From NCBI GenBank assembly GCA_963971535.1, contig CAXASK010002155.1, positions 1-64,000 of the forward strand: a stretch of 64,000 nt of DNA, given 5' to 3'. The notes beneath the pieces are model-generated. The model searched no databases. It was given only the letters and a program-made list of their open reading frames with translations, and was not told the DNA's origin. Of this stretch, positions 8,350-57,200 are shown one piece after another. Both the position numbers and the translations under genes were made by a program. This DNA comes from Notolepis coatsorum. Lineage: Eukaryota; Chordata; Actinopteri; Aulopiformes; Paralepididae. Positions within the stretch are counted from its first letter, which is position 1, and each line of letters begins with the position of its first letter.

Positions 8350-8815
8350 CAAAAGTCACCAATGTACTCCAATGTACAGCCCCACCCAACCCAACACCTA
8401 CCCAACCTCCTCCAATGTACAGTTTCCATGTCAAATGTATGTCAGTATTCCAATGTACAGTGTCCCCCCCCCTACCCAACCCCCCACCTCCAATGTACAG
8501 CCCCACCCCACCTACCCAACCTCCCCCAATGCACAGTTTCTATGTCAAATGTATATACTCTTCTTCTGGATTTTTTTAGTATCACAAACAGTACTGTATT
8601 TGAAAATCTGGTATGTCATAAATGTATAGATGTAGCAGTACTGTCTATCTGTATGTCATGTGTGTCATATGATGAATTGAAAATGGGGGACCCTGATGGA
8701 AACAAGACGAAAGTCTTTCTCAGGTCTGCATCCTCTTAACAATTGTATGTATTGAGCTGTACTGTACTGTACCCATTCTGCAATCTGTTAATAAACTTTT
8801 CAATCAATCAATCAA
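8350..8815 (+). mobile_element. LINE-A 3' fragment
   Basis: 3' UTR of LINE-A in plus orientation: a C-rich segment with repeated CCAATGTACAG, then ATGGGGGACCCTGATG and CTGCAATCTGTTAATAAAC, ending in (CAAT)n at about 8805. The tetranucleotide tail and 5' truncation are typical of target-primed reverse transcription. Confidence 0.8.
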
Positions 8816-8873
8816 AACCAGCCAATACTTGGCCGACCTCTATGTACTGTAAGTGCATCTAAGAGACCACTGC

Positions 8874-9917: not shown

Positions 9918-10308
9918 TCCACACCAGCATCCCTCCCAGGTGACGGCCACCTCGTGTGGACCTCGTCTAAATATCATACTTCTGAAGTATAAACAAACGT
10001 TTGATGCATTTGATGCTTCTTTACAGATTCAGTACCTTTGAAAAATAAGAGCAGATCTGGTCAATTTGTTGCATGTTTTTGCCTTTTGTGGAATGTTCAG
10101 GGAGTGGTTACCATGGTTACCTGCTGCCTTGTTGGAAGAAAGATTCTAAACATAATGTGAAAGTCCACAGTTGGTCAAACTACACCTCAAATGAGAAATA
10201 GTTCCTTTACTGATCATTTGAAAATGGCAACATTAGCTCATAAAAGTACCGTTAACACTGAAGAATACATTACACAAAATCACATTTATGTATACGGTAG
10301 TTTGTTTA
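9918..10308. other. unique-looking DNA, no gene seen
   Basis: No exon-like frame or recognised repeat. Confidence 0.4.
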
Positions 10309-14450: not shown

Positions 14451-17400
14451 GTTCTGTTTCGTTATGGCTTCGCTCAGCACCAGTTGCACAACAGGAGCTG
14501 AGCGGGAGCCATAGCCCGACAAATGTACCCCACTGAGGCCCCCCACAACCATCAGACCGGGGAGGACCGAGCCCCCCGACCCTCCCTAATGGAGGATACC
14601 CCCCCTATTGGAGGCTTACGGGAGGGAGATGGATCCGACAGTGTGAAGAGGAACTCAAGCAACTCAACGCACAGGGTGAGCAGACCGTGGCTTGACCCCA
14701 CGACTACACACACGCACAACCCGCATGCCACCCGGGAACGAACGGAAGGAACAACCTCGTTACTGCCCCCAAAATCACGGGGTCAAGAGCAACCCAACCC
14801 CGTGGCAAGGCTGTAGCAGCGGAGCACGAAGGAAGACCCAGACCCACCGAAGGGACTGGATCCCCTGGAAAAAGGGGGCCCGGAGAGGTCAATGACGCCA
14901 GGCATCAAGACCCCACCAGGCGGTCACTTAGTGACACCGCCCCCCACATCGCCAGCGTATTCGGATAAGGCCCCTCCAAGAGCGAGCCCTTTCCCCCCAA
15001 TAGCACACCGCCTGGCACACTGACCCTGCAGAACAGGCAGTCAGCATGGCCGTAAGCACTCAAAAAGGTTAACTAACGGAAGCAGGCAGCGCACCGGGGA
15101 AACCAGGCAGCAGGCTGTAACCTGAGCCTGGAGCACTGCGGACGAGACAGGCGCCAAAGGAGTCAGCTGAAAACAGCCCCCCCCGGCGGAAGGGGCGTAT
15201 GCTGGCGTTGTTGATCACCATGACAACGCCTCCATTAAAAAAAACCCACCCAGAGGGGTCGAGGCAGAGAAGGCTGACATGATTGGCAGACGTCATGAAC
15301 GTGCAGGGGCACACTCAACCGGGTAACCCGGGAGTTGACTCTGCTCCAACACACCAGGAAATCAACCACCCTCTCGCTACAGACGGTGGTTGTTCCTATA
15401 ACCCCTCAAGAAAAAACTCCAAAACACACCTGCGGGTATACACCGGCTATACCGCAGTACAAGCGTTTCAGTTTTCAAAAAAAGGTTATCCCAGGCCTAC
15501 GGTATCAACGAAACTTTACTTCGGACCGGGCCCGGCGGCACGGGAAGCACAGGGTTACCAGAGGAGGTCCAAGACCACCCCAACAGCCCCCTCTTCGCCA
15601 CACGTGAGAGAGGAGCGAAATAATGGAGAACCAGCCCTAAGCACACCGCACTTGGTATTCCCAGGCGGTCTCCCAACCAAGTACTAACCAGGACCGAACC
15701 TGCTTAGCTACCGAGATCGGGCGTGTACAGGTTGGTATGGCCGTAAGCCATTACGATAGTGCAGAGTACAACATGTACCCAACAAAGGGCCTCCATAACG
15801 CCTAACCCTGTGACACCCGGACCGACCCGGCATTTTTCCCCCCGAAAAAAGCACAAGTCCCTCAGGGTACCAGAACAGCAGATCTGCATCCCCGGCGGAC
15901 AACGGGTTAACTGACCTGGACCAGCGCGACCAGACCAGTCCCGTGTCCTAACCACGCCGACATGCCCACTCCAGAAGAGGGGGTAGGTATGCGTGTCGAT
16001 CTAAAACATGAAAAGAGGGCGCCACCCAGACGGTCCCCATTTGGACCGTGCTCAGTGGCCCACCCCAAGGGCGTGAGACCCCTCTACCTATGTTCTGATC
16101 TATTCCGTTAACATCCCCCAGATATGAACGAGAATTCATCGAGACAACCTAGTAAACTGGCGCTCGGAAGAGACAAAACTCCATCCCAGTTGCCCTATAA
16201 AAACGCTGTTTTAACAAGCAACCAAGGCGCACTTAGCCCCTGCGTGATTCTTTAACAGAAACACACCGAGCCAGCACTATGTATGCGTCAAGACCCAAAT
16301 ACATCAATGGATAGTCTAGCAAGACACCAAACATTGTTCCTCCAAGTCGCTTGGGAGAACGACACGGAGCCGTCGTGCTTCATGTACCTTCCTCTTTTTA
16401 TCCAAAAAAGAAAGAAACACAGACTGACATGAATCCCACATGACGCAGCTGAGGGTAATTTTTTTTTTACATTTTTACATCCCACCACCCTCGCCATAGG
16501 GAGGAGACGGAAATCCCCAGAGAGACTTCCCACGCGAGCTGTATAGATTGAAAAGAATATATTGCAACATTGAGCTATGTAATATTTGGGTTAGGGCTCT
16601 CCGAGGAGGAGGCACTGAACCAATACACACTCAATAATCGAATTGAATCGAATACACACACAATAGAGCAGAACTCCTTTTTGAAGTTCTACTCACCTTG
16701 ACAATCTGAGGAGGAGGCTCTGAACTCTGAGGAGGCTCCCTCACAGGGAAGGAGTCCGAACTCACAGAAGGCCCGAGGAGGAGCTTCGTGAGGAGGAGCT
16801 CTGACAACTCCCTGAAACAGATCCATAACATGGACCTGAACAACTCACGGAAGTCTTACCAACAGAGACGCGCACAGTGACATACTCTATGGCGGGGGAA
16901 TTTCTGCGGTGCACACGCCCAATCTTCCAGGGCGTGGGACCAGGAAACTCCCCCCCCCCCCCCCCTCTTACCCTGTAACGTGCCGAACAGCAACGTGACA
17001 GGAACCTTGAAGGACAGGAGGTTTTAACCCCTGACCAATCAGAAAAGGGGAGGAAAGGATTACCAGGTCGTACCAGTACGACCCCACACCCATGATACGA
17101 TGTAATGACAAAAAAGAGCATGACACAGTCATAGTCTGCTACATGAAGTGTCTAACAGCTACACATAGCTCATGTGCTAACCTGCTATCTGATTTTTACT
17201 AAGGAAAAAACACAGAATAGAGAGGGCCCCCTTTAAGAGCCCCGGTACCAGACTTACACATGTGCTTCTGTGACCAAACCTAACCCAGTTGTAGATCACA
17301 AGACACACACAACCCTTCATCACAACAAAAAATGGCAAAAGTACACTCTTGCTACAGAGGAACGCCGTTTTTCATAACGAGAGAATACAGAATCCTTGAT

Positions 17401-24875: not shown

Positions 24876-25051
24876 CCCAGCCAAGGCCACACTGAAGACA
24901 TTATGTGCATAAGAAGCCGTCTATCCGATGGCAGTCAGAATGCTGGAGGGCAGAGAGGAAGGGAAGTGATGTTCGGGACAAACCGATCATGATCGCTGAG
25001 TTGTTAAATCACAATGTTGTTATTTGTAATTACGTAGCATTTGTCTTTATA

Positions 25052-27023
25052 TCCACACATCAGCCTGCCTTAGAGTCTTTATATCCACACATCAGCCTGC
25101 CCGAGAGAGTCTTTATATCTACATATCAGCCTGCCCGAGAGAGTCTTTATATCTACATATCAGCCTGCCCAAGAGAGTCTTTATATCTACATATCAGCCT
25201 GCCAGAGAGTCCTTATATCTACACATCAACCTGCCAGAGAGTCTTTATATCTACACATTAGCCTGCCCGAGAGAGTCTTTATATCTACATATCAGCCTGC
25301 CCAAGAGAGTCTTTATATCTACATATCAGCCTGCCCAAGAGAGTCTTTATATCTACATATCAGCCTGCCCAAGAGAGTCTTTATATCTACATATCAGCCA
25401 GCCTGAGAGTGTTTATATCTACACATCAGCCTGCCTTAGAGTCTTTATATCCACACATCAGCCTGCCAGAGAGAGTCTTTATATCTACATATCAGCCTGC
25501 AAGAGAGAGTCTTTATATCTACATATCAGCCTGCCAGAGAGTCCTTATATCTACACATCAACCTGCCAGAGAGTCTTTATATCTACACATTAGCCTGCCC
25601 GAGAGAGTCTTTATATCTACATATCAGCCTGCCCAAGAGAGTCTTTATATCTACATATCAGCCTGCCCAAGAGAGTCTTTATATCTACATATCAGCCTGC
25701 CTGAGAGTGTTTATATCTACACATCAGCCTGCCTTAGAGTCTTTATATCCACACATCAGCCTGCCAGAGAGAGTCTTTATATCTACATATCAGCCTGCAA
25801 GAGAGAGTCTTTATATCTACATATCAACCTGCCCAGAGAGTCTTTATATCTACACATCAACCTGCCTGAGAGAGTCTTATATCTACACATCAGCCTGCAA
25901 GACAGAGTCTTTATATCTACACATCAGCCTGCCCAAGAGAGTCTTTATATCTACACATCAGCCTGCCCAAGAGTCTTTATATCTACACATCAACCTGCCT
26001 GAGAGAGTCTTATATCTACACATCAGCCTGCCCAAGAGAGTCTTTATATCTACACATCAGCCTGCCCGAGAGTCTTTATATCTACATATCAGCCTGCCCG
26101 AGAGAGTCTTTATATCTACATATCAACCTGCCCAAGAGTCTTTATATCTACACATCAACCTGCCCGAGAGTCTTTATATCTACATATCAGCCTGCCTGAG
26201 AGAGTCTTTATATCTACACATCAACCTGCCAGAGAGTCTTTATATCTACATATCAGCCTGCCTGAGAGAGTCTTTATATCTACACATCAACCTGCCCAAG
26301 AGTCTTTATATCTACACATCAACCTGCCCGAGAGTCTTTATATCTACATATCAGCCTGCCTGAGAGAGTCTTTATATCTACACATCAACCTGCCCAAGAG
26401 TCTTTATATCTACACATCAACCTGCCCGAGAGTCTTTATATCTACATATCAGCCTGCCTGAGAGAGTCTTTATATCTACACATCAACCTGCCAGAGAGTC
26501 TTTATATCTACATATCAGCCTGCCTGAGAGAGTCTTTATATCTACACATCAACCTGCCTGAGAGGGTCTTTATATCTACACATCAACCTGCCAGAGAGAG
26601 TCTTTATATCTACATATCAGCCTGCCAGAGAGAGTCTTTATATCTACACATCAGCCTGCCCGAGAGAGTCTTTATATCTACATATCAGCCTGCCCGAGAG
26701 AGTCTTTATATCTACACATCAACCTGCCAGAGAGTCTTTATATCTACACATCAACCTGCCCGAGAGAGTCTTTATATCTACATATCAACCTGCCTGAGAG
26801 AGTCTTTATATCTACATATCAGCCTGCAAGAGAGAGTCTTTATATCTACACATCAACCTGCCAGAGAGAGTCTTTATATCTACACATCAACCTGCCTGAG
26901 AGAGTCTTTATATCTACACATCAACCTGCCCGAGATAATCTTTATATCTACATATCAGCCTGCCAGAGAGAGTCTTTATATCTACACATCAACCTGCCTG
27001 AGAGAGTCTTTATATCTACACAT
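25052..27023. repeat. 31-34-bp minisatellite, left part
   Basis: About 60 copies of a unit such as AGCCTGCCCGAGAGAGTCTT + TATATCTACATATC. Variants have CAGCCTGCC or CAACCTGCC, ACACAT or ACATAT, and 2-3-bp length changes in the GAGAG part. Higher-order repetition is visible, since blocks near 25060-25440 reappear near 25410-25740. Long frames across it (ESLYIYISACPR type) are by-products. Confidence 0.96.
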
Positions 27024-28330
27024 ATCTTCTCTCCTTCCTTTCTAAAACACTTGAACGTGCTGTATCCAACCAACTTACTACTTATCTCTTACAGAATGAC
27101 CTCCTAGACCCTAATCAGTCAGGCTTCAGGACTGGTCACTCCACAGAGACAGCCCTCATTGCGGTCACAGAGGCACTTCACTTAGCAAAAGCGAAAGGCC
27201 TCTCCTCTGTCCTGATTCTCCTAGATCTATCTGCAGCCTTCGACACAGTCAACCACCAGATCCTCCTTGCGGCCCTCGCAGGAATGGGAGTGGCTGGCTC
27301 TGCGCTGACATGGCTGTCATCATACCTCAATGACCGCTCCTACCAAGTGTCATGGAGAGGGACCCTGTCGGCCACCCGCCCCCTGCGGACGGGTGTCCCC
27401 CAGGGCTCGGTTTTAGGACCCCTTCTCTTCTCCCTCTACACTAAATCACTGGGTAACATTATCACGTCTCATGGCTTCTCCTACCATTGTTATGCCGACG
27501 ATACTCAACTCTTCCTCTCCTTCCCTCCCTCAGATATCCACGTCTCTGTGCGGATCTCGGCCTGTCTGTCCGACATCTCAGCCTGGATGACGTCCAACCA
27601 CCTCAAACTGAACCTAAGCAAAACAGAATTGCTCCACCTGCCGGCCAAATCCTCCCCCCTAACCGACCTTTCAATCACAGTCGAGAATGCAGCTGTGACT
27701 GCGTCCCCGACCGCCAAGAACCTTGGTGTTGTCCTCGACGACCAATTGAACTTCTCTGCTCACATCGCAGCGACGACCAGAACCTGCCGATTCCTCCTGA
27801 GCAATGTCAGAAGGATACGCCCCTTCCTGACAAAAGAAGCCACCCAACTCCTCGTCCAATCAACAGTCATCTCCCGCCTCGACTACTGCAATGCACTGCT
27901 CGCTGGCCTCCCGGCCACTGCCACTAAGCCTCTTCAACTCATTCAGAACGCAGCGGCCCGCCTGATCTCAAACCTACCGAAGTCGGCCCATGTCACCCCA
28001 CTTCTTAGGGACCTGCACTGGCTCCCCATTGCTGCACGAATCCGCTTCAAGGCCCTCGACCTAGCATACCGTGCGGCAAAGGGAACCGCTCCCGCCTACC
28101 TCCGGTCAATGGTCTCTAACTACACACCCTCAAGACCCCTACGCTCTGCATCTTCTGGCCGCCTCAGACCTACTCCTATCCAAGCTCCGGGAGGGTCATC
28201 AAAGAGAAGTCGCATATTCTCAGTCCTTGCCCCACAATGGTGGAATGAACTACCCACCCCAGTTAGGACAGCCGAATCACGTCCAATCTTTCGCCGTCGA
28301 CTAAAGACGCACTTCTTCAACCATTATCTG

Positions 28331-28336
<6 letters not shown>
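27023..28336 (+). pseudogene. L2-like reverse transcriptase, 5'-truncated ORF
   Basis: One uninterrupted frame of about 437 codons begins at the insertion junction, so the true start is lost with the 5' truncation. It opens with SFLSKTLERAVSNQL, then GFRTGHSTETALIAVTEALH and LDLSAAFDTVNHQILL (RT motif A, with the catalytic Asp). GVPQGSVLGPLLFSLYT (motif B) follows, then YHCYADDTQLFLSF (catalytic YADD, 27491-27502). The C-terminal region includes RLDYCNALLAGLPA and LHWLPIAARIRFKAL, ending RRRLKTHFFNHYLN. The endonuclease and N-terminal RT region are absent, so it could not retrotranspose. The clean frame indicates a recent insertion. L2 assignment rests on motif style and could be another CR1/L2-group clade. 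Confidence 0.9.
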
Positions 28337-28366
<30 letters not shown>

Positions 28367-28553
28367 AACCCTAACTAACCGTACTGTCATGCACTTGTCC
28401 TAATAAACTAACCTACACTGTAGCACTCAACACTTTGATGAACATTGTTGCTCAGCTGATAGAGTTGTGCCCTTCCTGATGGCTTGTCGTACAGAACTTG
28501 TAAGTCGCTTTGGATAAAAGCGTCAGCTAAATGACTAAATGTAAATGTAAATG
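27024..28553 (+). mobile_element. 5'-truncated L2-like LINE inside the minisatellite
   Basis: It is flanked by a 7-bp direct repeat TACACAT (27017-27023 and 28554-28560), and the minisatellite continues on both sides. The 3' end has a ~32-bp A tract at 28336-28364, then CTTGTAAGTCGCTTTGGATA and a short (ATGTAA)n tail. The 5' truncation, short target duplication and repeat tail fit target-primed integration. It is the best-preserved of the L2 copies in the window. Confidence 0.93.
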
Positions 28554-29008
28554 TACACATCAACCTGCCTGAGAGAGTCTTTATATCTACACATCAGCCT
28601 GCCCGAGAGAGTCTTTATATCTACACATCAGCCTGCCAGAGAGAGTCTTTATATCTACATATCAGCCTGCCAGAGAGAGTCTTTATATCTACACATCAAC
28701 CTGCCAGAGAGAGTCTTTATATCTACATATCAGCCTGCCAGAGAGAGTCTTTATATCTACACATCAGCCTGCCTGAGAGAGTCTTTATATCTACACATCA
28801 GCCTGCCAAAGAGAGTCTTTATATCTACATATCAGCCTGCCAGAGAGTCTTTATATCTACATATCAGCCTGCCCAAGAGAGTCTTTATATCTACACATCA
28901 GCCTGCCCGAGAGAGTCTTTATATCTACACATCAGCCTGCCCCGAGAGAGTCTTTATATCTACACATCAACCTGCCAGAGAGAGTCTTTATATCTACACA
29001 TCAGTGTC
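28554..29008. repeat. 31-34-bp minisatellite, right part
   Basis: Continuation of the 25052-27023 array after the L2 insertion, about 14 units, ending in unique DNA. Confidence 0.95.
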
Positions 29009-30381: not shown

Positions 30382-31129
30382 CCCTGCCTGCCTGACAAAC
30401 TCTCCTTGCCTTTCCCGGAACATATGAGGACCTGTACCCGCTCTGATCCCTGCCTGGCTAACTCCCCTGTACCCGCTCTGACCCCTGCCTGGCTAACTCC
30501 CCTGTACCCGCTCTGACCCCTGCCTGGCTGACTACTCCGTTCCCGTGTATCGACCCCTGCCTGTCTGCAAGGCCAGATTAAGACTTCAGAGGCCCCTGGG
30601 CCAGATTCTTGTGGAGGCCCCCCCACACACACATACACGTGCACGCACGCACAGTGGCGTTTTTATATGTCACTTTATAAAATATATAGAATATTTAGAA
30701 GTGGTGGGCTCTGAGGGCCAAGCTAAAAGGACTTTGATCACCCCTGCCCACTTTGACAACCTAGGATGGCTTAGAGTAGACGACAGAGTACAGCAACTTG
30801 CAATGGGCCAGGTCTACAAGATACACTACACGACCAAGGTACTAGGGCGGGCCATACTTTTTTTTTTGGAAAATCAATCGAGTGAGGTGTCTAAAATATG
30901 TGTTTTTTTGTGGGGAATTCAAATATGGGATTATTTTTCTAATCGGATAACTCCTACCTACATTGTTTTGGATTTCAAAATGGCCGATTTGACCATTTTT
31001 CACCCCTTGGCCATACATGGATGCCAACATGAATCTGAAGGAAATCCTAACATGCAAGGTGTCTAAATGATGTGTTTCTTAATGGGGAATTCAAATATGA
31101 GTTCATTTTTGGGATAGGATAACTCTAAC

Positions 31130-31942
31130 GACCAGTTGAACTTCTCTGCTCACATCGCAGCGACAACCAGAACCTGCAGATTCCTCCTGAGCAACGTCAG
31201 AAGGATACGCCCATTCCTGACAAAAGAAGCCACCCAACTCCTCGTCCAATCAACAGTCATCTCCCGCCTCGACTACTGCAACGCACTGCTAGCTGGCCTC
31301 CCGGCCACTGCCACCAAGCCTCTTCAACTCATTCAAAACGCAGCGGCCCGCCTGATCTCAAACCTACCGAAGTCGGCCCATGTCACCCCACTTCTTAGGG
31401 ACCTGCACTGGCTCCCCATTGCTGCACGTATCCGCTTCAAGGCCCTCGGAGTCGACCTAGCATACCGTGCGGCAAAGGGAACCGCTCCCGCCTACCTCCG
31501 GTCAATGGTCTCTAACTACACACCCTCAAGACCCCTACGCTCTGCATCTTCTGGCCGCCTCAGATCTACTCCTATCCAAGCTCCCGGAGGGTCATCAAAG
31601 AGAAGCCGCCTATTCTCAGTCCTTGCCCCACAATGGTGGAATGAACTACCCATCCCAGTTAGGACAGCCGAATCCCGTCCAATCTTTCGCCGTCGACTAA
31701 AGACTCACTTCTTCAACCATTATCTGAAATGATAAAAAAAAAAAAAAAAAAATCTAACCCCGACTAACCTTACTGTCATGCACTTGTCCTAATAAACTAA
31801 CCTACACTGTAACACGCAACACTTTGATGAACATTGTTACTCAGCTGATAGAGTTATACCCTTCTTGCTGTCTTGTCGCACAGAACTTGTAAGTCGCTTT
31901 GGATAAAAGCGTCAGCTAAATGACTAAATGTAAATGTAAATG
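31130..31942 (+). mobile_element. 5'-truncated L2-like LINE nested in the left arm
   Basis: It starts in frame at DQLNFSAHIAATTRTCRFLL and ends with a 3' tail identical in type to 28420-28553, including (ATGTAA)n. The interrupted host sequence ACTCTAACCTACATC can be restored if TAAC (31126-31129 and 31943-31946) is the target duplication. It is nearly identical to the 27024 copy, indicating recent activity of one subfamily. Confidence 0.9.
31136..31732 (+). pseudogene. L2-like RT C-terminal fragment
   Basis: Open frame of 198 codons with RLDYCNALLAGLPATATKPL, LHWLPIAARIRFKALGVDLA and RRRLKTHFFNHYLK. It has a 2-codon insertion (GV) relative to the 27023 copy. No RT catalytic residues are included. 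Confidence 0.9.
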
Positions 31943-32578
31943 TAACCTACATCATTTTGGATTTCAAAATGGCCGATTTTACAATTTTTCACCCCTTGGC
32001 CATACATGGATGCCAACATGAATCTGAAGGAAATCCTAACATGCAAGGTGTCTAAATGATGTGTTTCTTAATGGGGAATTCAAATATGAGGTAATTTTTG
32101 GGATAGGATAAATATAACCTGCATAATTTTGGATTTCAAAATGGCTGATTTTACCATTTGAACCCATTGGTATTGTATTACAAAATTGCAAATATAAAAA
32201 ATATATGGGAAATCATTTATAATGACAAAGCCATCAAATTTATTAACAAGTGAACTGTATATAACTGGATACAACTCCAAAGATCAATAATAATAATACT
32301 AACAATAATAAATTGTATTTGTAATGCACACAAACACCTAAGTGCTAAATCTCGATCTCCTGACTTCTTGAACTTTGCCAGGTTCCAATATCTTGATTGG
32401 ACTCATTCTTGGATGGCAAGATCTCCTACTATACTGCTTTAGCCACCAACCTACAAACACAAACTTAAAGTCAACGTCAGCCATAAATAGGTGAGCTCTT
32501 TCCAGAACTACTCAGCAGAAACCTCTGTAACCATTTTAACAAACGTCTCAATGTATTGAGAAAATCCATGGGGCTCCA

Positions 32579-34334
32579 TCAATCCTCTATCTTCTTAAAT
32601 TTGATCAGGTTGCACAAGTCCTGCTTGGATTCATTCTTGGACATCAGCCTCCTGCTGGTCTCCTGAGCCCTGATCCCTCCATCCCTTTTTTCTTGTGAAA
32701 AGTACTTAGCAGAGGCCTCAGTCACCATTTTAACAACCCTCTCGATGCTTTGTGTGTGGCAAGGCCAGTCGAGAACCTCCATGGGGGTGTTGATTAAGTT
32801 CTTCACCTCGGAGGTGCTTAGGGAGCAGGTGAGAGGTGGCTCTGACAAATCTTCTGACCAGCTGATTAAGCCACCAATGCTGGAAGCGTCACTATTGATG
32901 TGATGTGTTCTTCTGATCCTGACACAGGAGTCTCCCAGCTGAGTGTCTGGATCCCCCTCTCCCCTGATGGCCAGGATTCTCTCCACCCCCTCAATTCTCT
33001 CTTTTTGATCCTCAGAGCACAGCAGTGTTTGGAGGATGGCTTCACTGTGGGCATACCAAGCAGATCTTCTCATAGTTGGCATCACAACATCCAGCACCTC
33101 CTTCCTCTGAGACTTGAGGCAGTCCAGCTGAAACAGGATGTGCCTAGGCCCTTTGATCCAGGAGTGCTTGACCTTCATGTTGAACCAACATGGATAATAC
33201 ACTCCAATGATGAATTCCACAATGCATTGTAGATTATTCAGGTTCTTTCTTTTAAGTTGATGCTTTGACACCCAGAGCCTGGAGTCTGTTTGCTGTGGTG
33301 AGCCAGCGGCTGTGGTTTACCGGTCCAATCTCCAGCAGAGCCAGCCTTGCAGAAAGCACTCCATCCCTGATTGCACAGACCAGCTTATAGCCATAGTGTT
33401 GATCAGTTGAGAGATCTTGAATGATCTTCTCAGGCAGCTTGATCAGCGGAGGGCCAAGAAAGATCCTGGTGAAGTTAGGATTGATCTCCAAGTCTGTAAC
33501 AGAATCAAGGAGCTGTCCTATTGGCCCAGACAATTTGTTGTCTGACAGAGTAGCCCCATCAACTTCAACAATGAGACGGCGCAGTGGAAGTTCACCAGTG
33601 TGCAGGTTGCACACCAACCAGACCAGCTTTCTCCCCAGGTGCAGCTCCAGCTTCCGCATTACACCTGCCTTCACTCCAGTGTTGACATTGGTCGAGTCTC
33701 CTCCAATGGCCCACAAGGTCTTATCAGAACCTCTCTCGTTCAGCCAGGCAAACAGGACCTTAGCAATCTTCTCTGCATGGGACTCCTCTTTAGTTGCTTT
33801 CTCTGGTGTAAAGTGGAACAGATAGTTGCTGCCAGGCTCACTAGCAACACTATAGTGTTCTTCCTTGATCTTTGCAGGAAAAGATTGGTCACTGCCCTCA
33901 GCTTCCATCATCACATTGGTCATGTCAATCCGCCCATCAAAGAGGATACAGGAGATCCCCCCCTCCTCCCTGCACTTCTCCTCAAACTCTTCCCCCAGCT
34001 CTTGCATCAACTTTTCTTGTGCTCTCTTAACCTTGTTCTTATCAATCACTTTACTTGTGTCATCTTCTAAGATGAGTCCTGCATCAATCAGAGCTGCAGT
34101 TGCTATAGCTGCAGTTGGCCTTAGACCTATGCCATACCTTACACTAGCAAGGGCGATGTTTGGAATCTCATCATAATTTTTCCGTAGCTTTGCTGAAGCT
34201 GCAGGGTCAGTTTCAGGAATGAGCTCAACTTCAGGGACTGTAAGGAAGCTCTCAACATCCTTCCTGGCAACCTTGTCTGCTGCTGCAAAGCTTTCTTCTT
34301 TGCCCCTTCTCCTTTTCTCTGCCTTCTTTTCCAT
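32579..34334 (-). pseudogene. transposase-like protein of the long-TIR element, frameshifted
   Basis: The first frame runs from an ATG at 34334 (MEKKAEKRRRGKEES) to a stop at 33252, about 360 residues. A second frame, 33271-32579, continues the same protein for about 230 residues, so one frameshift near 33265 separates the halves (about 585 residues in all). Motifs in order: basic N-terminus; CILFDGRIDMTN (Asp near 133); AIGGDSTNVNTGVKAG (Asp near 213); WLVCNLHTGELPLRRLI; STDQHYGY; NHSRWLTTANRL near 340. The second frame has YYPCWFNMKVKHSWIKG, PCHTQSIERVVKMVTEAS and RDGGIRAQETSRRLMSK. The D…D…C-H…RW order resembles the RNase H-like fold of hAT-type transposases. From memory it also resembles unannotated proteins widespread in arthropods and cnidarians. 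The last codons lie inside the left inverted arm. A functional transposase is unlikely unless the frame change is programmed. Confidence 0.75.
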
Positions 34335-34352
34335 CCCCTGCCTTTCCAATGT

Positions 34353-35465
34353 TTTAAGAAGATAGAGGATTGATGGAGCCCCATGGATTTTCTCAATACA
34401 TTGAGACGTTTGTTAAAATGGTTACAGAGGTTTCTGCTGAGTAGTTCTGGAAAGAGCTCACCTATTTATGGCTGACGTTGACTTTAAGTTTGTGTTTGTA
34501 GGTTGGTGGCTAAAGCAGTACAGTAGGAGATCTTGCCATCCAAGAATGAGTCCAATCAAGATATTGGAACCTGGCAAAGTTCAAGAAGTCAGGAGATCGA
34601 GATTTAGCACTTAGGTGTTTGTGTGCATTACAAATACAATTTATTATTGTTAGTATTATTATTATTGATCTTTGGAGTTGTATCCAGTTATATACAGTTC
34701 ACTTGTTAATACATTTGATGGCTTTGTCATTATAAATGATTTCCCATATATTTTTTATCTTTGCAATTTTGTAATACAATACCAATGGAATCAAATGGTA
34801 AAATCAGCCATTTTGAAATCCAAAATTATGCAGGTTATATTTATCCTATCCCAAAAATGACCTCATATTTGAATTCCCCATTAAGAAACACACCATTTAG
34901 ACACCTTGCATGTTAGGATTTCCTTCAGATACATGTAGGCATCCATGTATGGCCAAGGGGTGAAAAATGGTAAAATCGGCCATTTTGAAATCCAAAATGA
35001 TGTAGGTTAGAGTTATCCTATCCCAAAAATGAACTCATATTTGAATTCCCCATTAAGAAACACACCATTTAGACACCTTGCATGTTAGGATTTCCTTCAG
35101 ATACATGTAGGCATCCATGTATGGCCAAGGGGTGAAAAATGGTAAAATCGGCCATTTTGAAATCCAAAATGATGTAGGTTAGAGTTATCCTATCCCAAAA
35201 ATTAACTCATATTTGAATTCCCCATTAAGAAACACATCATTTAGACACCTTGCATGTCAGGATTTCCTTCAGATTCATGTTGGCATCCATGTATGGCCAA
35301 GGGGTGAAAAATGGTCAAATCGGCCATTTTGAAATCCAAAACAATGTAGGTAGGAGTTATCCGATTAGAAAAATAATCCCATATTTGAATTCCCCACAAA
35401 AAAACACATATTTTAGACACCCCCCTCGATTGATTTTCCAAAAAAAAAAAGTATGGCCCGCCCTA
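34353..35465. repeat. right inverted arm with four 172-bp-spaced repeats
   Basis: GCCATTTTGAAATCCAAAA recurs at about 34807, 34979, 35151 and 35323, spacing 172 bp. The unit includes ATTTGAATTCCCCATTAAGA, ACACCTTGCATGTTAGGATT and ATGTATGGCCAAGGGGTGAA. This arm has one more unit than the left arm, which explains the length difference. Confidence 0.92.
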
Positions 35466-36344
35466 CCAAGGTACCCATGTACATGTCAAAATACTTCGCA
35501 AAGGTCAGTGAATACCACGATCACAACACCAGAGGGAGCTCCACAAATCATGTTAAACCCAGATTCGGCTCAAACAAGGGACTAAACACGTTTCGCAATT
35601 ATGCCACATCAATGTGGAACACCCTACCCAAAGCTGTAAAGGAATGTGAATCACTACCCACTTTCAAAAACACTCTCAAAGAACACCTACGGGAGACTGC
35701 AATTCGAAACTAGCCCCTGTAAATGTCTTAACACAACCCTCCAATGTACAGTAAATGACCAAGTATGGTTCTGTCAATATTCCAATGTACAGTTTTGCTT
35801 GTACAGTTGTACAGTGTCCCCCACCCACCCAAAACCCTCCCACCCACCGAACCACCTCCAATGTACAGTCCCCCCAACCCCACCCCACCTACCCAACCTC
35901 CTCCAATGTACAGTTTCTACGTCAAATGTATATACTCTCTTTTCTGGACTCTTTTCGTATCACAAACAGTACTGTATTTGCAAATCTGGTATGTCATAAA
36001 TGTATAGATGTAGCAGTACTGTCTATCTGTATGTCATGTATGTCATATATGTTATGATGAATTGAAAATGGGGGACCCTGATGTAAACAAGACGAAAGTC
36101 TTTCTCTGGTCTGCATCCCCTTAACAATTATTGAGCTGTACTGTACTGTACTGTACTGTACCCATTCTACAATCTGTTAATAAAGTTTTCAATCAATCAG
36201 TCAAGAAGAGAAAAGAAACACATCATGTTGGAGACAAGAATATAATATTAGAATAGTAAGCTTAATTTTACGTGAATGTCAATTTAAATTATAATTAGGG
36301 AAGGGAGGGGGTTGAAATGTGTTTTTTGTCCTGTGTTACTTACT

Positions 36345-39656: not shown

Positions 39657-40364
39657 AGAGAGAGAGAAGGAGGGAGAGAGAGAGACAGAACCATTGAAAG
39701 AAATGAAGGACACAAGAATGTAAAAATAAAGACAAATAAGGTGAATATGGTAAGATAGAAGGATAATAATAATAATACATTGTATTTGTACTAGTGCACC
39801 TTTCGTTCACTAAGATCCCAAGAGAGATGGACAGAATGTGAATAGATACATGCTGTTGAAACCTAATGGCTATTGTGGAGGAGGCTTCTTCCGGTGGTCA
39901 AAAGGGACACACACGCACGCACGCACGCACAGGGTAGGTGAGGGTGCAGTGACACAAAACCAAGGAAACAATTAGCAAAATAATTGTATTTATTTTTATA
40001 AACAAAAAAAAGAGAGCAAGGAGGACTACCTAGTGGCACCAAATGAAATATCAAAAGGAAATGAAAACCCACCCCCCCTTACAGGCGCTGGCGCCCCAAA
40101 AGTACAGGTGGCGGTGCTCACTCTAAAGCTGGTGTCTTTAACATCAGGTCACCTACGTGGTGCAAAAATTTAGACCCCAGAGTATCTTCCTATCCTCAAT
40201 GTTTCTGTGTGCGAAACAAAAGATTAATACAAAGAAAAGCAATCACCATAGGCTATACAAGGGATTACGGTTAGACAGAAATGTGCAATAAACAACGAAC
40301 ACCAAAATATACTGTGAGAGTTACACCAGAAACACATTACCAGGGCCTTCACCAGCTCTACACA
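39657..40364. other. unique and low-complexity DNA, no gene seen
   Basis: Includes GA tracts, an (ATA) run with a retroelement-like tail at 39758-39805, and (CACG)n at 39910-39930. Confidence 0.4.
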
Positions 40365-41345
40365 AGCTCAGAGCCTTCACCAGCTCTACAAAAGACCAGA
40401 GCCTTCACCAGCTCTACAAGAGGCCAGAGCCTTCACCAGCTCTACAAGAGGCCAGAGCCTTCACCAGCTCTACAAGAGGCCAGAGCCTTCACCAGCTCTA
40501 CAAGAGGCCAGAGCCTTCACCAGCTCTACAAGAGGCCAGAGCCTTCACCAGCTCTACAAGAGGCCAGAGCCTCCACCAGCTCTACAAAAGACCAGAGCCT
40601 CCACCAGCTCTACAAAAGACCAGAGCCTTCACCAGCTCTACAAAAGACCAGAGCCTTCACCAGCTCTACAAAAGACCAGAGCCTTCACCAGCTCTACAAA
40701 AGACCAGAGCCTTCACCAGCTCTACAAGAGGCCAGAGCCTTCACCAGCTCTACAAAAGACCAGAGCCTTCACCAGCTCTACAAAAGACCAGAGCCTTCAC
40801 CAGCTCTACAAGAGGCCAGAGCCTTCCCCAGCTCTACAAAAGACCAGAGCCTTCACCAGCTCTACAAGAGGCCAGAGCCTTCACCAGCTCTACAAAAGAC
40901 CAGAGCCTTCACCAGCTCTACAAAAGACCAGAGCCTTCACCAGCTCTACAAGAGGCCAGAGCCTTCACCAGCTCTACAAAAGACCAGAGCCTTCACCAGC
41001 TCTACAAAAGACCAGAGCCTTCACCAGCTCTACAAGAGGCCAGAGCCTTCACCAGCTCTACAAAAGACCAGAGCCTTCACCAGCTCTACAAGAGGCCAGA
41101 GCCTTCACCAGCTCTACAAAAGACCAGAGCCTTCACCAGCTCTACAAAAGACCAGAGCCTTCACCAGCTCTACAAAAGACCAGAGCCTTCACCAGCTCTA
41201 CAAGAGGCCAGAGCCTTCACCAGCTCTACAAAAGACCAGAGCCTTCACCAGCTCTACAAAAGACCAGAGCCTTCACCAGCTCTACAAGAGGCCAGAGCCT
41301 TCACCAGCTCTACAAAAGACCAGAGCCTTCACTAGCTCTACAAAG
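40365..41345. repeat. 28-bp minisatellite, about 35 copies
   Basis: Unit AGCCTTCACCAGCTCTACAA + AAGACCAG, with two main variants (AAAGACCAG and GAGGCCAG) intermixed. Since 28 is not a multiple of three and the unit has no stop, a 372-codon frame (SLHQLYKRPEPSPALQ type) crosses it. It is a by-product. Confidence 0.97.
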
Positions 41346-41655
41346 TACAGTATACCCGCTCTCCCACAAAGACACAGAATAGTTACCACAACCAAATGAA
41401 CCAGGGAGCTAACTAACACGGCACACAATGCGGTATATGAAGGGGTGTGGAGATTAATTGCTGACGAGCCTCAGCTGCGGCTGCACTGGGGTGAGTTGCT
41501 GATTGACCAGCTGCTGCTGCAACTGGGACTGGGAGACACCTGAGAATGGGGATATGTAGACACAAGAGGGAGACAAGACAAGAACAAACAAAACATGCCT
41601 ATATATACAACAGATAACATACATAACTCCCTCTATATACATCCATGGGTCCGTA
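41346..41655. other. unique-looking DNA, no gene seen
   Basis: AGCTGCTGCTGCAACTGGGA and similar GC-rich sequence. No supported exon. Confidence 0.35.
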
Positions 41656-50271: not shown

Positions 50272-52045
50272 AACTTTATTTAACAGATTGCAGAATGGGT
50301 ACAATACAGTACGGCTCAATACACACAATTGTTAAGGGGATGCAGACCAGAGAAAGACGTTTGTCTTGTTTACATCAGGGTCCCCCATTTTCAATTTATA
50401 TTGACATTTATGACATACACAACATACATGACATTTATGGCATAGGGACATACAGGTATTTAGTACTGATACATTTGTGACATAAACGGTATTCAAATAT
50501 AAAGTACTGTTACCCATAGATCCTGACAGAGTATATACATATGATGGGGAGGGGACTGTACATTAGGAGGGGGTGGGTGGGTGGGAGAGAAATATACATA
50601 CGGTGGGGTGGAGACTGTACATTTGGAGGGGGTGGGTGGGTGGGAGAGAAATATACCTACGGCGGAGAGAGAATATATACATGCGGTGGGGAGGAGACTG
50701 TCTATTAGGAGGGGGTGGGGGGTTTGGGCATTTACGGTGGCCAGTTTCGAATTGCAGCCTCCCGTAGGTGCTCTTTAAGAGCGGTTTTGAATGTGGGTAG
50801 GGATTCACATTCCTTTACAGCTTTGGGTAGGGCGTTCCACATTGATGTGGCATAATTGCAAAACGTGTTTAGTCCCTTGTTTGAGCCGAATCTGGGTTTA
50901 ACATGATTTGTTGAGCTTCCTCTGGTGTAGTGGTCGTGGTATTCACTGACCTTTGGGAAGTATTTTGACATGTACATGGGTACCTTAGTCGTATGTATAG
51001 TGCATCTTGTAGACCAGGCCCATTGCAAGTTGCTGTACTCTGTCGTCTACTCTAAGCCATCCTAGGTTGTCAAAGTGGGCAGGGGTGAGGTGGGTTCTAG
51101 GAGTAAGGTCAAGCAGTAGTCTGACCAGTTTATTTTGTGATGTTTGTAATTTTGTTTTTAGCGCCTTTGAGGTGCTTTGGTACCATGAGGTGCAAGCATA
51201 GTCGTAGTGATGATGAGTGTTCCTGCCAGAGTCATGGACATGTCATTTGCATAAATTAGGAACAGTAGCGGTCCTAGTATGCTTCCTTGTGGAACACCAC
51301 AGCTCACTGGGAGGGGGGGATAGGGTACCGTTTACCTCCACCATCTGTTCTCTCCCCTCCAGGTAGGATTGCATCCAGCTCACTGATAGACTATCAAAAC
51401 CAATTGCTTTTATCCTGTCAATCAGAATAGAGTGATTGACAGTGTCGAAGGCCTTTTGTAGGTCCAGCATGACCATGCCGCAGTATTTGCCCGCGTCCAC
51501 CTCTTGTTTGATGTGGTCATTCAAATAGAGAAGGCATGTGTCAGTGGAGTGGGATGTTCTGAAGCCAGATTATATTAGATTAGATTTTTTTCCGCAAGGT
51601 ACTTTTCGACCTGTTCCTATACTATTTTTTCCATGACTTTCGAGATGGAGGTAAGAATAGAAACAGGGCGGTAGTTGCCTGGGTCTAATTTGCTGCCATT
51701 TTTGTGCAGGTGGGTTACTCGCAATTTTGAAGTCTTTGGGTACGTGTCCCTGTTTTATGGAGAGGTTTATTATGTGTGTGATGACTGGGGTGATGGCGGC
51801 TGCTGAGTCTCTGAGGAATTTGGAGGGGATATTGGATCTCATTCACCAACGACTTACGACAAAAAGATGAAATTCTTTTTTGCAGTTTTGATCATGGAGT
51901 TTACTTCATTTCTTAGTCTGTTTCTTTGCAGTTTGAGTTCAGTCACGTGGGCTTGGAGTTCACTGCTCGAGCTTTTGGTAAGCTTTGACTGACTTTTATG
52001 AAACTCAGAGCATTTTTTGTCTCTGGTTTTCATAGCGGTAACCAT
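50272..52045 (-). mobile_element. LINE-A, largest copy
   Basis: 3' UTR (50272-50730), ORF C-terminus (50732-51120) and part of the RT (51180-51850), then an upstream segment with KTRDKKCSEFHKSQSKLTKS and LRNEVNSMIKTAKKNFIF near 52030-51870. It defines the family's order and shows the uninterrupted site used by the long-TIR element near 50985. Confidence 0.88.
50732..52045 (-). pseudogene. LINE-A reverse transcriptase, broken
   Basis: Pieces in order on the minus strand: IPSKFLRDSAAAITPVITHI (51842-51780), several frame changes, SGFRTSHSTDTCLLYLNDHI, MVMLDLQKAFDTVNHSILID (motif A) and SYLEGREQMVEVNGTLSPPP. PQGSILGPLLFLIYANDMS follows near 51290-51235. An internal deletion then removes the YADD motif. 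The C-terminus is KYFPKVSEYHDHYTRGSSTN … MWNALPKAVKECESLPTFKT. The order and motifs place it in the Jockey/CR1/L2/I group of non-LTR elements. I cannot assign a clade. Confidence 0.85.
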
Positions 52046-52467: not shown

Positions 52468-53169
52468 TGTGAGGGCTGGCCCAGTACTGCACGCTTCCAG
52501 GTACCAATTACCTTCACGCACCTGAAGGGAGTTTCAAATCAGCTCGATGGGAGCCCTTATATACTCAGGGTTTCTGAACGTTCAGTGTCGGGTCGTTTTG
52601 CTTAACACCACCTGCTGCTTGTTCCTCCCGTGTTGTTTCTCCATTGTTTTCTCCAGTACGTTTTCCTGGAGATCGCCGCTGTTACCCCTCTCTGCCCTGT
52701 GGACCCGTGCCTCGTTTTTCTCCCGTTGCCCTCGGTGAGTTTTTGGAAATATATTTTTGATGTTCTGTTTTCCTCATTCTTTCCTGGACTCAAGACCTGC
52801 ATTCTGTTTTTGTGTGTTCCGTTAACACTGAAGAGGTGTCGCTTGTTTTAGTTACTGGACTCTACTTATTACTGGACTGCCTCGTAATCCCTACGCTCGC
52901 TTATTGACACTCTTTTTCTCTGTTCCTCCCGAGTGGATATACAAGAAGCTGCAGAGCCGCAGAGCCAGGGCCGCAGCGCCACAGAGCCAACTCTGCTCTG
53001 GGCCGAGCAGCAGAGCCGCAGAGCCTACTCTGCTCAAGGACATTCCCCCTGAATGCTTTATGTTGTTTTTTTGCTCTTTCTGTTTGTAAATAAATACGCC
53101 CATTGTTTTTGGCTAACTCTGAACTACCTGTCTGTGTCGTGCTGTTGGGGTTGTTTACAAACCTTAACA
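52468..53169 (+). repeat. 5' LTR of the sushi-like element
   Basis: U3 holds a TATA box TTATATAC (52558-52565). The predicted RNA start lies near 52587. AATAAA lies near 53090. The end is TTAACA. Confidence 0.93.
52558..52596 (+). promoter_or_regulatory. LTR TATA box and self-priming 5' RNA end
   Basis: GTCGGGTCGT (52587-52596), about 29 bp after TTATATAC, is exactly complementary to ACGACCCGAC (53172-53181) just behind the LTR. In Tf1 and sushi elements the RNA 5' end folds back on the primer site and is cleaved to prime reverse transcription. This pair fits that scheme. Confidence 0.75.
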
Positions 53170-53182
53170 TTACGACCCGACC
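53170..53182 (+). other. primer-binding site (self-complementary)
   Basis: Immediately after the LTR end, TTACGACCCGACC lies next to the gag ATG at 53183. It pairs with the LTR, not with an obvious tRNA 3' end. Confidence 0.75.
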
Positions 53183-54264
53183 ATGTCGACCCCAGCCGAC
53201 ACAGACAGTGTTAGAGCAGCCTTGGCAGGTCAGATCCAGCTGACCAATGACCACACCCAACAGCTAGACGCGGCTGCGGCTGCTGTGCAGGACCTCCGGG
53301 CCCAGGTTCAGCCTATCCGGATTTCTCTTGACACTCTGACCACCCAGCAGACTGCCCAGGGTAATCAGGAGGCTGATATTCTGCACCAGTTGCAGGCTCT
53401 CAGTGCAGCATTTAACACCCTGCTTTTAACCCCACCTGTGGCAGGAGTTCCAGCCGGACCACCACCTGCCGCCGCGACTAACCCTGCGCCTCCTGACCCC
53501 GCTCCTCGGGAGCCCCATCTCTCCAACCCACGATTGTTCAACGGTAACTTCGAGGACTGTGCCATGTTCATCATGCAATGTGACTTAGTTTTCATTCATC
53601 AACCCAGCAGATTTACGAGAGAGGGAGCCCGGGTGGCTTACATGACTAACCTGCTCACAGGCCGAGCAGCACAGCACTGCTTCCTGGTCAATGAGGGCTG
53701 ACTTCTGTTTTTCATACACAGATTTTGTGGCTCCGCAGGGTTTTCCACCACCCAGCTCGTGGCCAGGACCCAGGAGCCCGGTTGGGCACCTTCCGGAAGG
53801 GCAGTGGCAGTGTCACCGTCTATGCGCTGGAGTTCAGACTGGCCGCGACCGAGAGTTGTTGGAATGATCGGGCGCTTCATCTCACTTTTCTGAAGAGGCT
53901 CAACGACGCTGTGAGGGACCAGCTCGCCACCCGGGAGGAGCCCGATTAGCTCGAGGCCCTAATCAGCCTCGCCATCCGCATCGACGGACGCCTCCGGGAG
54001 AGAAGGCGCGAGCGAGCCCGACTGGGACCCCCAGCCGCTCCCCAGACCTCCCGCACTCGTGACTGGACTGCTGATCGTCCTGTCTCCTCCGCGACAGGTG
54101 GCCTTTTTCCCTCCCGACCTGTGACCAAGGAGGAACCCATGCAGCTGGGACGCACACACCTTAGCCCGGCCGAACGGGAGTCCCGGCTCAGGTCCGGCCT
54201 TTGTCTCTACTGCGGCCTGGATGGACACCGTATCAACAATTGTCCTACCCGGCCAAAAGACTAG
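53183..54264 (+). pseudogene. gag, frameshifted
   Basis: Starts MSTPADTDSVRAALAGQIQL, with a helical region and a Pro/Ala stretch. The capsid-like part LSNPRLFNGNFEDCAMFIMQ … FTREGARVAYMTNLLTGRAA stops at 53701 (TGA). The protein continues in another frame from about 53725 (GSGSVTVYALEFRLAATESC, LHLTFLKRLNDAVRDQLATR), with a further in-frame TAG at 53947. It ends in a zinc knuckle [14 protein letters not shown] (C-x2-C-x4-H-x4-C) at about 54205-54246, stopping at 54264. Gag packages element RNA. This copy cannot make it whole. The same domain type gave rise to host PEG10/RTL genes in mammals. Confidence 0.9.
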
Positions 54265-57200
54265 GCTTGCTGGGACCCCGGGAGATGCACCACCTAGCCA
54301 TCTGACGAGCGTCACCCTGGCCTGGGCGGACCAGCGGGTGACGGTGGGTGCACTCGTTGACTCTGGGGCTGATGAGAGCTTCCTGGATTTTGAGTTTGCC
54401 ACCCAGGCCAACATTCCACTTGAGAACCTCGAGAGGCCCTTGGAGGTTTTCGCGTTGGATCAGCACCGCCTGGCTGACATCACTCAACGCACCTGTCCTG
54501 TCCTCCTCACGATTGCTGGTAATCACGTTGAGAGACTCCAGTTCTTTATTACCAGATCCCCTCTAGTCCCAGTAGTTCTGGGTCATCCCTGGCTCACGCT
54601 GCATGAGCCCCACATCGCCTGGTCCTCCGGCACCATCATGGGGTGGAGCTCCTCCTGTCATGCCCAGTGTCTTCAGGCAGCGTCTAGTCCGTCGCCCCGG
54701 AGTTCCCCTAGTGTGCCGCCCCCGGACCTCTCAACTAGGTGTTCAGCAAGTCCCGGGCTCAGGTCCTTTCTCCTCATCGGCCTTACGACTGTGCAATCGA
54801 CCTCCGCTCTGGGGCTCCCATTCCCGGCAGCCGCCTTTACAGTATGACCGTCCCTGAGAAGGCAGCGATGGAGAAGTACATCTCTGAGTCCTTGGCAGCA
54901 GGCCTCATTCGGCCCTCGTCCTCCCTGGTGGCGGCCGGCTTCTTTTTTGTTGGGAAGAAGGACGGAGATCTCCGGCCCTGCATTGACTATCGCCAACTCA
55001 ACGAGATCACCATCAAGAACAAGCATCCTCTTCCTCTCATGAACTCCACCTTCGATCCCCTCACCCAGGCTACCGTCTTCACTAAACTGGACCTCCGGAG
55101 TGCCTACCATCTGGTCCGTATCCGAGAGGGCGACGAGTGGAAGACCGCCTTCAAGACTCCCAGGGGTCATTATGAGTATCTGGTGATGCCATTCGGCCTC
55201 ACCAACGCTCCGGCCATATTCCAGGCGCTCATGAACGACGTTCTCCGTGACATGCTCGAGGAGTTTGTGGTGGTCTACCTTGACGACATCCTCATCTTCT
55301 CCAAGACTCTCGAGGAACATGTCCAGCATGTCCGCCGAGTACTTGAGCGCCTTCTCCACAACCGGCTCTTCGTTAAGGTAGAGAAGTGCCGTTTCCACTC
55401 CAACTCCGTCGATTACCTTGGCTTCATCGTGGAGAGTGGCCAGACCCGAACCGACCCCCGCAAGATCCAGGCGGTGGAGGAGTGGCCGGAGCCCTCCTCT
55501 CGGAAGGAGCTACAAAGCTTCCTCGGTTTCGCAAACTTTTACCGGAGGTTCATCCGGAACTACAGCCAAGTGGTGGAACCGCTTACCAGGCTGACCTCTC
55601 CCTCCCTGCCGTTTGACTGGTCTCCAGCGGCCTGCGCTGCGTTCCGTTCCCTCAAGAGGAGATTCACCACCGCCCCGGTCTTGCTCCACCCAGACCCCAA
55701 GAGGCAGTTCATTGTGGAGGTGGACGCCTCGGATACTGGACTAGGGGCTATCCTGTCTCAGTGGTCGGCGACGGACCAGAAGGTCCATCCGTGCGCCTTC
55801 TACTCTCGTTGTTTCCTTCCTGCTGAGAGGAACTATGACATTGGAAATCGGGAGCTGCTGGCGGTAGTGGCTGCCTTGGAGGAGTGGCGTCATTGGCTGG
55901 AGGGGGCCGAGGAACCGTTCACCATTTGGACAGACCATAAGAACTTGATGTACATCCGTGCTTCCAAGCGCCTCAACGGCCGACAAGCAAGGTGGGCCAG
56001 CTTCCTCAGTCGGTTCGACTTCTCTTTGACCTTTCGCCCTGGGTCCCGCAACACGAAGGCCGACTCTCTGTCCCGGTTACACTCCAAGGGGGCTCCAACC
56101 ACTGAGGATCCGACTCCCATCCTCCCTGAGGTCAGGGTGGTGGGAGTGGTCACCTTGGGCATCGAGACCGTGGTCAGGCGTGCCTTACGTTTCCATCCCG
56201 CTCCAAGCAACGTACCTTATTGTCGCCTCTTCGTCCCCGACTCAGTCCGGTCCCGGGTTCTTCAATGGGGCCATACTAGCCGGTTTGCCTGCCACCCCGG
56301 CATCCACCGCACTTTCTCCTTCCTGGCTCGTCGGTTCTGGTGGCCCACCATGAGGAACGACGTCAGGGAGTTCGTACTGGCCTGCACGGTCTGCGCCCGC
56401 AGCAAGGCCTCTCACCAGGCACCCTCCGGTCTACTACAGCCACTTCCCATTCCGAGCCGCCCTTGGTCCCATGTGGCGTTGGACTTCGTCACTGGCCTTC
56501 CACCTTCCCAGGGAAACACTGTCCTTCTGACAGTGCTGGATCGTTTCAGCAAGGGGGTTCACCTCGTGGCCCTTCCCAAACTTCCATCAGCTTCCGAGAC
56601 AGCGGACCTCCTGACGAGCCATGTGTTCCGCCTCCATGGTTTCCCCCAGGACGTCGTCTCGGACCGGGGGCCCCAGTTCACTTCCCAGGTATGGCGGGCC
56701 TTTTGCAAGGGATTGGGGGCCACTGTTAGTCTTTCGTCTGGTTACCATCCACAGACTAACGGACAGACTGAGAGAATGAACCAGAGCGTGGAGTCTGCTC
56801 TCCAGTGTGTTGCCGCCAAGAGACCTGCTTCCTGGAGCCGGTTCCTCCCCTGGGTTGAGTATGCCATCAACTCCCTGGTCAGCTCCGCCACCGGCCTCTC
56901 GCCATTCGAGGTATCTCTGGGCTACCAACCCCCTCTTTTCTCTGCACAGGAGTCGGAAGTGGCAGTTCCCTCTGTGCAGGATAATCTCGACCGGTGTCGT
57001 CGTGTCTGGGAGATCACCACGACTGCGCTGCTCCGGGCATCGGAGCGCGCCAGTCGGGGAGCTAACCGACGTCGGATCCCTGCGCCGACTTACCAACCTG
57101 GGCAGAAAGTTTGGTTGTCCTCCAAGGATTAGTCCACCGCCAAGAAGCTTAATCCCCGGTTCGTCGGCCCTTTCGAGATCCGGAAGGTGCTCAGTCCCAC

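Follow-up and report, generated by a model that had tools for sequence, protein, structure and literature searches.

The element described here occupies positions 30843 to 35465 of a 64,000-nucleotide stretch of the genome of the fish Notolepis coatsorum (contig CAXASK010002155.1, positions 1 to 64,000; this whole stretch is hereafter referred to as the window), and it is very likely a foldback-like, non-autonomous element that derives from a cut-and-paste DNA transposon and is probably moved in trans. Where its transposase gene meets the arm, the arm sequence repeats the 3' end of that gene in inverted orientation, including the terminal residues ...FKKIED and the stop codon, and this junction was present in all 20 further window-type copies that we analyzed, vs. 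none of 20 loci in the same genome that retain the N terminus of the gene. The window-type element has recently multiplied in this genome, and its insertion yields 9-bp target-site duplications (TSDs) with a symmetric preference for the pattern nYRnnnYRn.

The termini of the element are identical, inverted TAGGGCGGGCC sequences; TAGGGCGGGCCATAC begins at 30843, and an exact inverted copy closes the element at 35465. The same 9-bp sequence, CCAAGGTAC, adjoins both ends, and a paralogue of the target repeat that lacks the element carries the site only once, with one base changed from the duplication (CTAAGGTAC, minus strand, 51010-50956), so that the perfect ends, the 9-bp duplication and the empty site near 50985 proposed in the initial annotation all stand. 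The paralogue itself has diverged, with 92.7% identity over 109 bases of the left flank and 76.4% over 770 bases of the right. Inverted 11-mers lying 1 to 8 kb apart with an adjoining identical 9-mer occurred once in the window and in none of 20 windows shuffled in two-base blocks.

A search of the window's own assembly (3.42 Gb, 4,787 contigs) with a 1,501-bp query returned 1,368 first-look candidates, a figure that is not a count of window-type copies, because the 3' part of the query is common to all classes. Each of the 40 candidates that were scored, including the window, matched the query over its full length at 99 to 100%, and we analyzed 20 of the 39 scored copies besides the window, these being the best ranked by likeness to it. 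Eighteen were 99.0 to 99.5% identical to the window element minus a long interspersed nuclear element (LINE)-like piece in its left arm, the remaining two reaching 88% (L022) and 81% (L025) in the same alignment; the LINE-like piece was missing from all 20. Near-identical copies are thus many, and for this reason the reading of the window gene as a lone broken relic was dropped.

Both ends were present in 17 of the 20 copies, 11 of which carried an exact 9-bp duplication (12 of 18 two-ended copies with the window included), and an exact duplication of just 8 bp was found in none of the 17. The TSD length, earlier drawn from a single insertion, now comes from these 12 exact cases, and the possibility raised beforehand that the 9-bp repeat was a chance one falls away. 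The exact duplications share a pyrimidine (Y) at positions 2 and 7 and a purine (R) at positions 3 and 8; 11 of the 12 fit this pattern, the exception, ATGGGGGGG, being off at one position. Fifteen of 25 further flanks that played no part in deriving the pattern also fit it, against 5.45% of control 9-mers (binomial P ~2e-13), these flanks not all being independent in that some damaged copies give both flanks and two loci have the same 9-mer.

The transposase gene lies in two overlapping minus-strand frames, A (33255-34412) and B (32582-33316), with the switch near 33280. The two frames from which a gene of about 585 codons had been reconstructed are real, but the full gene is longer; relatives in this genome carry about 195 more N-terminal codons, and these first codons are missing in the window. 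Neither is the broken frame a general trait, since frames A and B are fused as one frame of 594 to 611 codons in 9 of the 20 other window-type copies.

A genome search with the N-terminal stretch of 193 residues that the window protein lacks yielded 152 matches from 150 scored of 206 candidates. Among those listed, at least 16 begin at residue 1 or 3 and run to residue 193, and about 70 are confined to residues 147 to 193, many of these having a 625-codon open frame (684 codons in one). We examined 20 of these N-terminus-search loci, most of which stop short of the end of the gene. In 18 loci, the match to the window element starts at one and the same base, 1111 from its 5' end, and the gene region is 98.2 to 99.6% identical to that of the window element in 16 and 90.1 to 97.5% identical in the other four. 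Where the 5' arm is visible (14 loci), it ends at position 673 (13 loci) or 685 (one locus), and in no case is the inner arm part found upstream of the gene; that part appears downstream of the gene, in inverted orientation, in only L043, L045 and L052. A full-length copy, pieced together from two neighboring loci, measures 4,618 bp, and its arms match each other over about 500 bp (97%). Two other shortened forms were observed: a second class that lacks codons 1 to 146 (including L060 and L061), with the gene fused to the terminal repeats at codon ~145 (two copies), and a third (L056 and L057), with the fusion at codon 47. The forms cut at codon 147 (two copies) and codon 47 were shortened without arm growth.

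In the window element, by contrast with these N-terminus-bearing loci, the inner ~440 bp of the right arm (34353-34792) consists of the inverted 3' flank and gene tail and replaces the 5' leader and N terminus. The left arm comprises the terminus, tandem repeats, the LINE-like piece and the 3' flank of the gene, and its innermost part is the stop codon with the last seven codons. With the 807-bp LINE-like piece excluded, 940 of 961 aligned bases match between the arms. The estimate of inverted arms near 1 kb is therefore borne out (1,113 bp on the right), but the reading of such arms as a defining trait of a Mutator-like element (MULE) is not supported, because their inner part is the derived, inverted 3' end of the gene and all 14 visible 5' arms of the N-terminus-bearing loci stop at 673 or 685. 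Three sequences document the junction, namely GTG-AAAACATTGG in the full-length form, CTTCTTAAA-TTTG in the arm source and CTTCTTAAAACATTGG in the product, with an overlap of three bases, AAA. Both arms also hold a probable remnant of a second 3' coding end, which matches residues 741 to 763 and then 778 to 788 of the relative P0131, in order; the match is weak alone (E 0.09) and is backed at 32387-32564 by direct repeats D4 (76%) and D5 (87%). This duplicate probably goes back to an earlier event in which the gene tail was duplicated in tandem.

We suggest that the parent encoded a transposase of about 800 amino acids between terminal inverted repeats (TIRs) that matched over about 0.5 kb, as in the one copy read end to end, and that were made up of tandem units of 172 bp. 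DNA synthesis starting in one terminal repeat, in the course of gap repair or replication, would have used the opposite arm as a template, overrun that arm through the 3' flank as far as the gene's last seven codons, and then switched at the AAA microhomology to codon ~196. The 5' leader and N terminus would in this way have been exchanged for the inverted 3' end and the arms lengthened to about 1.1 kb, and a single such founder would have multiplied, probably moved in trans by the full-length enzyme. We regard this order of strand switching as the simplest account; the underlying transposition chemistry would be hairpin forming, as in Hermes. Sequence capture by animal TIR transposons has been attributed to switching between templates at short stretches of microhomology (median, 2 bp; PMC8277862).

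The alternative that the long arms are ancestral, the window type having arisen by simple deletion of the 5' leader and N terminus, draws on the direct joining of terminal repeats to the gene that made the other shortened classes (at codon ~145 and codon 47). We consider it highly improbable, however: arm positions beyond 690 lie upstream of the gene in 0 of the 14 N-terminus-bearing loci, with the inner arm instead located downstream and inverted in the three loci named above; the arms match over only about 500 bp in the sole full-length copy read end to end; and ancestral long arms would still require a past duplication of the gene tail in inverted order. A different question is whether the shortened protein is used. 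Variants shared by at least 2 of the 21 window-type copies comprised 12 non-synonymous, 5 synonymous and 0 stop changes, and private variants comprised 56, 21 and 6, respectively, the proportions expected without selection being 0.70, 0.27 and 0.03. In these numbers we see no sign of selective constraint on the shortened gene, 17 shared variants being few, and movement in trans is favored on that account. Were the shortened form autonomous, a protein of ~585 amino acids without the cysteine cluster domain would bind and move the element, aided by the tandem repeats of the arms. The unbroken frame in 9 of 20 copies, all five motif strings being present in 7 of those 9, speaks for such an enzyme, as does the multiplication of the second class, shortened at codon ~147 and often with the 625-codon frame; against these stand the retention of the lost domain's four cysteines (C128 C130 ... 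C151 C153) in 176 of 178 long relatives, with gaps in the other two, the lack of a synonymous excess among shared variants, and the presence in the genome of near-identical N-terminus-bearing copies as a possible source of enzyme. On balance, we think autonomy of the shortened form unlikely.

Several observations nonetheless weigh against our interpretation of a non-autonomous derivative moved in trans, or against parts of it. No intact full-length gene was seen in the N-terminus search, in which most loci are too short to show one; among the 12 loci examined that extend to codon 1 or 2, the longest open frame with an N-terminal motif had 567 codons. The variant test is based on few shared variants; the persistence of an unbroken short frame proves little in young copies, yet a working short enzyme is possible; and the multiplication of the codon-147 class indicates that loss of the N terminus might not be disabling. 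Since the 20 window-type copies were chosen by rank, their share among all copies is not deducible from them. The duplication requires an indel in 3 of the 17 two-ended copies (L021, L033 and L037), and no credible 9-bp TSD was found in three others (L024, L028 and L031); the full-length copy L041 has a mutated terminal base, giving an exact match of 8 bp rather than 9, and 10 of the 25 test flanks are off the target pattern. Finally, the whole-chain superposition of the transposase on Hermes by Foldseek is loose (TM-score, 0.37/0.43; root mean square deviation, 13.8).

The features of the element and its target are collected in the table, in which frame A codon positions were derived from motif residue numbers. 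The presumed third acidic residue of frame B, within HTQSIER, lies at 32741-32743. We take the piece in the left arm to be LINE-like, and its frame had no match in Pfam.

Table. Features of the window-type element and its target sites in the window
Feature	Position	Strand	Basis or remark
Transposon	30843..35465		gene on minus strand
Left target-site duplication, CCAAGGTAC	30834..30842	.	identical to 35466-35474
Right target-site duplication, CCAAGGTAC	35466..35474	.	identical to 30834-30842
Empty site, paralogue of target repeat without element	50956..51010	-	site present once
Transposase frame A, from MEKK	33255..34334	-	open reading frames, motif positions, conservation
Frame A motif, D1 codon	33936-33938	-
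Frame A motif, D2 codon	33696-33698	-
Frame A motif, CxxH	33600-33611	-
Frame A motif, RW	33303-33308	-
Transposase frame B, helical region and HTQSIER	32582..33316	-	stop 32579-32581
Left arm (3' arm relative to gene)	30843..32599	+	inverted repeats I1, I2, I12; arm alignment
Right arm (5' arm relative to gene), 1,113 bp	34353..35465	-	inverted repeats, arm alignment
Presumed LINE-like piece, TGTAAA repeats at end, left arm only	31130..31936	+	two further copies in window, 27738-28555 and 48463-47656
172-bp tandem repeat, 3.7 units	34793..35421	-	Tandem Repeats Finder
Point at which inverted arm meets gene, AAA microhomology of three bases	34353..34355	-	comparison of window and full-length sequences
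Probable remnant of a second 3' coding end, left arm, downstream of gene	32387..32564	-
Same remnant of the 3' coding end, inverted, right arm	34388..34565	+

Elsewhere in the window, frames that are presumably those of a Gypsy-like retrotransposon occupy 52468-61366, with repeats of ~300 nucleotides at 52468, 57552 and 60983 and a 3' half duplicated at a spacing of 3,431 bp. Weak matches to the transposase protein at 55.2-55.5 and 58.8-58.9 kb were rejected as antisense to these frames. Two matches to the terminus with three mismatches, at 58307 and 61738, lie inside copies of one repeat. A 5S rRNA match on the minus strand (15640-15748; 75.3 bits, full model) was the sole Rfam match at the gathering threshold in the window, and long repetitive arrays at 8795-10038, 25030-27104 and 40275-41396 are open in several frames.

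Family searches, with the best 120 matches of each listed, returned 236 proteins (E <= 0.001) for frame A, 174 for an alignment of 36 sequences and 1,222 for a divergent branch. Most matches are without an organism name, but the named relatives among those listed include notothenioid and other teleosts, hagfish, Hydra, snow crab, sea louse, a leech, a moth and a phylloxera, so the family extends beyond fish. The window protein groups with teleosts, and snow crab (P0178, P0060 and P0051) and sea louse (Caligus; P0082 and P0083) sequences fall inside the same 21-row clade (SH-like approximate likelihood ratio support, 100) of a quick tree, made without bootstrap, in which several rows are short and one crab row is long branched. 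Identity between P0178, from the crab, and the two pieces of the window protein is 76% and 85%. Judged from sequence comparison, this nesting could reflect horizontal transfer, perhaps between host and parasite, or contamination. Viral and prokaryote contigs gave 67 and 24 pattern matches, respectively, none of which was confirmed as a relative, and a comparison with predicted viral structures was negative at E <= 0.001. The terminal 15-mer of the element had one exact match in each of nine viral-contig stretches.

Full-length members mostly have 740 to 860 amino acids, and conservation was assessed in the 178 members, out of 324, with at least 650 residues. The order of D, D, CxxH and RW noted in the initial annotation is strongly retained (D347, D427, R557 and W558 in 177 each, C456 in 176 and H459 in all 178), and E746 of a C-terminal ER motif, which from its helix we infer to be the third catalytic residue, is present in 174, with three gaps. 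The predicted architecture, of which we are rather confident, is that of a transposase of about 800 amino acids with an N-terminal helical domain and conserved cysteine cluster, a long helix, and a catalytic RNase H domain, hAT/IS256-like, that contains a helical insertion. The Pfam search proposed earlier for both translated frames found no family above chance, and the same was true of 36 relatives and 10 full-length members; in sequence searches of solved structures, a match to TMK1 kinase (E 0.0076) and one to cytidylate kinase (E 0.34) were both judged to be due to chance. As the family is widespread in animals and has no Pfam match, it is probably underannotated, and a profile built from it should reveal unrecognized elements.

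Among solved structures, the transposase lies nearest to hAT, as the suggestion of a hAT-like RNase H fold had implied. It shares with Hermes (PDB 4d1q) the RNase H catalytic fold with a helical insertion and the residues D, D, CxxH, RW and E in that order. It differs in its 9-bp TSD, that of hAT elements being 8 bp, and in its N-terminal cysteine cluster, hAT transposases carrying an N-terminal BED finger; identity to Hermes is 10 to 12%, and no Pfam hAT model was among the families listed for the window frames, the 36 relatives (25 families) or the 10 full-length relatives. A symmetric 9-bp target together with a hAT-like core bears on how this fold sets TSD length. The wider fold and CxxH motif are shared with ISCth4 (PDB 6xgx) of IS256, the bacterial kin of MULEs, which structure comparison ranks below hAT. 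The TSD and the arms (~0.5 kb in one full-length copy and 1.1 kb in the window type) fit MULEs, for which TSDs of 8 to 11 bp and long inverted repeats are described as usual (PMC6446971), but the MULE domain PF10551 was not among the matches listed for the window frames, the 36 relatives or the 10 full-length members; remote kinship may exist. Kolobok, Zisupton/KDZ and Merlin may likewise be kin, the Pfam scans of the 36 relatives and 10 full-length members having given no match above chance, and the fold may also resemble that of solved P element or Transib/RAG1 members. Dada elements share fish, crustacean and annelid hosts and a D-D-E signature with DxxH, but they are described as having no TIRs, 6- to 7-bp TSDs and RNA-gene targets (PMC3706591), and they are ruled out by the TIRs and 9-bp TSDs found here.

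A closer candidate by description is Rehavkus, which is described as having a 9-bp TSD, TIRs of 26 to 400 bp, arthropod and annelid hosts, a PHD finger, and a minisatellite ahead of the 3' TIR (PMC6446971); Rehavkus-1_TC, of 9.5 kb, has 164-bp tandem repeats in its inverted termini (PMC10218199), and Rehavkus has been moved into MuDR in Repbase (PMC4455052). The element described here likewise has a 9-bp TSD, tandem repeats of similar unit length (172 bp) in inverted termini, and relatives in insects, crustaceans and a leech, and the name would be compatible with a foldback derivative. It has, however, a cysteine cluster where Rehavkus has a PHD finger, neither a PHD finger (E up to 1) nor a MULE domain was detected in any of 10 full-length members, and the preference of structure comparison for hAT over IS256 also tells against it; we accordingly put the identification at somewhat below even chances, the comparison being with its published description. 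Because two hAT tests and the MULE domain test were negative, because the TSD and arms fit MULEs, and because the PHD finger of Rehavkus is missing, we leave the superfamily name open, with Rehavkus as the nearest candidate. Literature searches found no prior description of the element; Repbase and Dfam lay outside these searches, so a name may exist. A more ambitious possibility, which we advance tentatively and think rather unlikely, is a large unnamed animal cut-and-paste superfamily with a hAT-like core, its own cysteine cluster domain, terminal tandem repeats, 9-bp nYRnnnYRn duplications, foldbacks copied from the opposite arm and repeatedly multiplied N-terminally shortened forms that perhaps outnumber their parents. 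With at least two other such shortened classes in this genome, whether and why shortened forms win becomes testable.

The window element fits the description of foldback elements (FB, Galileo, Tetris and Tm1), which have long inverted termini with internal tandem repeats and are thought to have arisen separately in several superfamilies through lengthened termini (PMC4079207 and PMC3169594). Arguments on how foldback elements acquire their long arms have drawn on end products. In this one genome, a shorter-armed full-length relative, the derivative and the exact lengthening junction coexist at ~99% identity, so that the step of arm growth can be followed at the level of single bases; the stop codon of the gene itself is part of the new arm.

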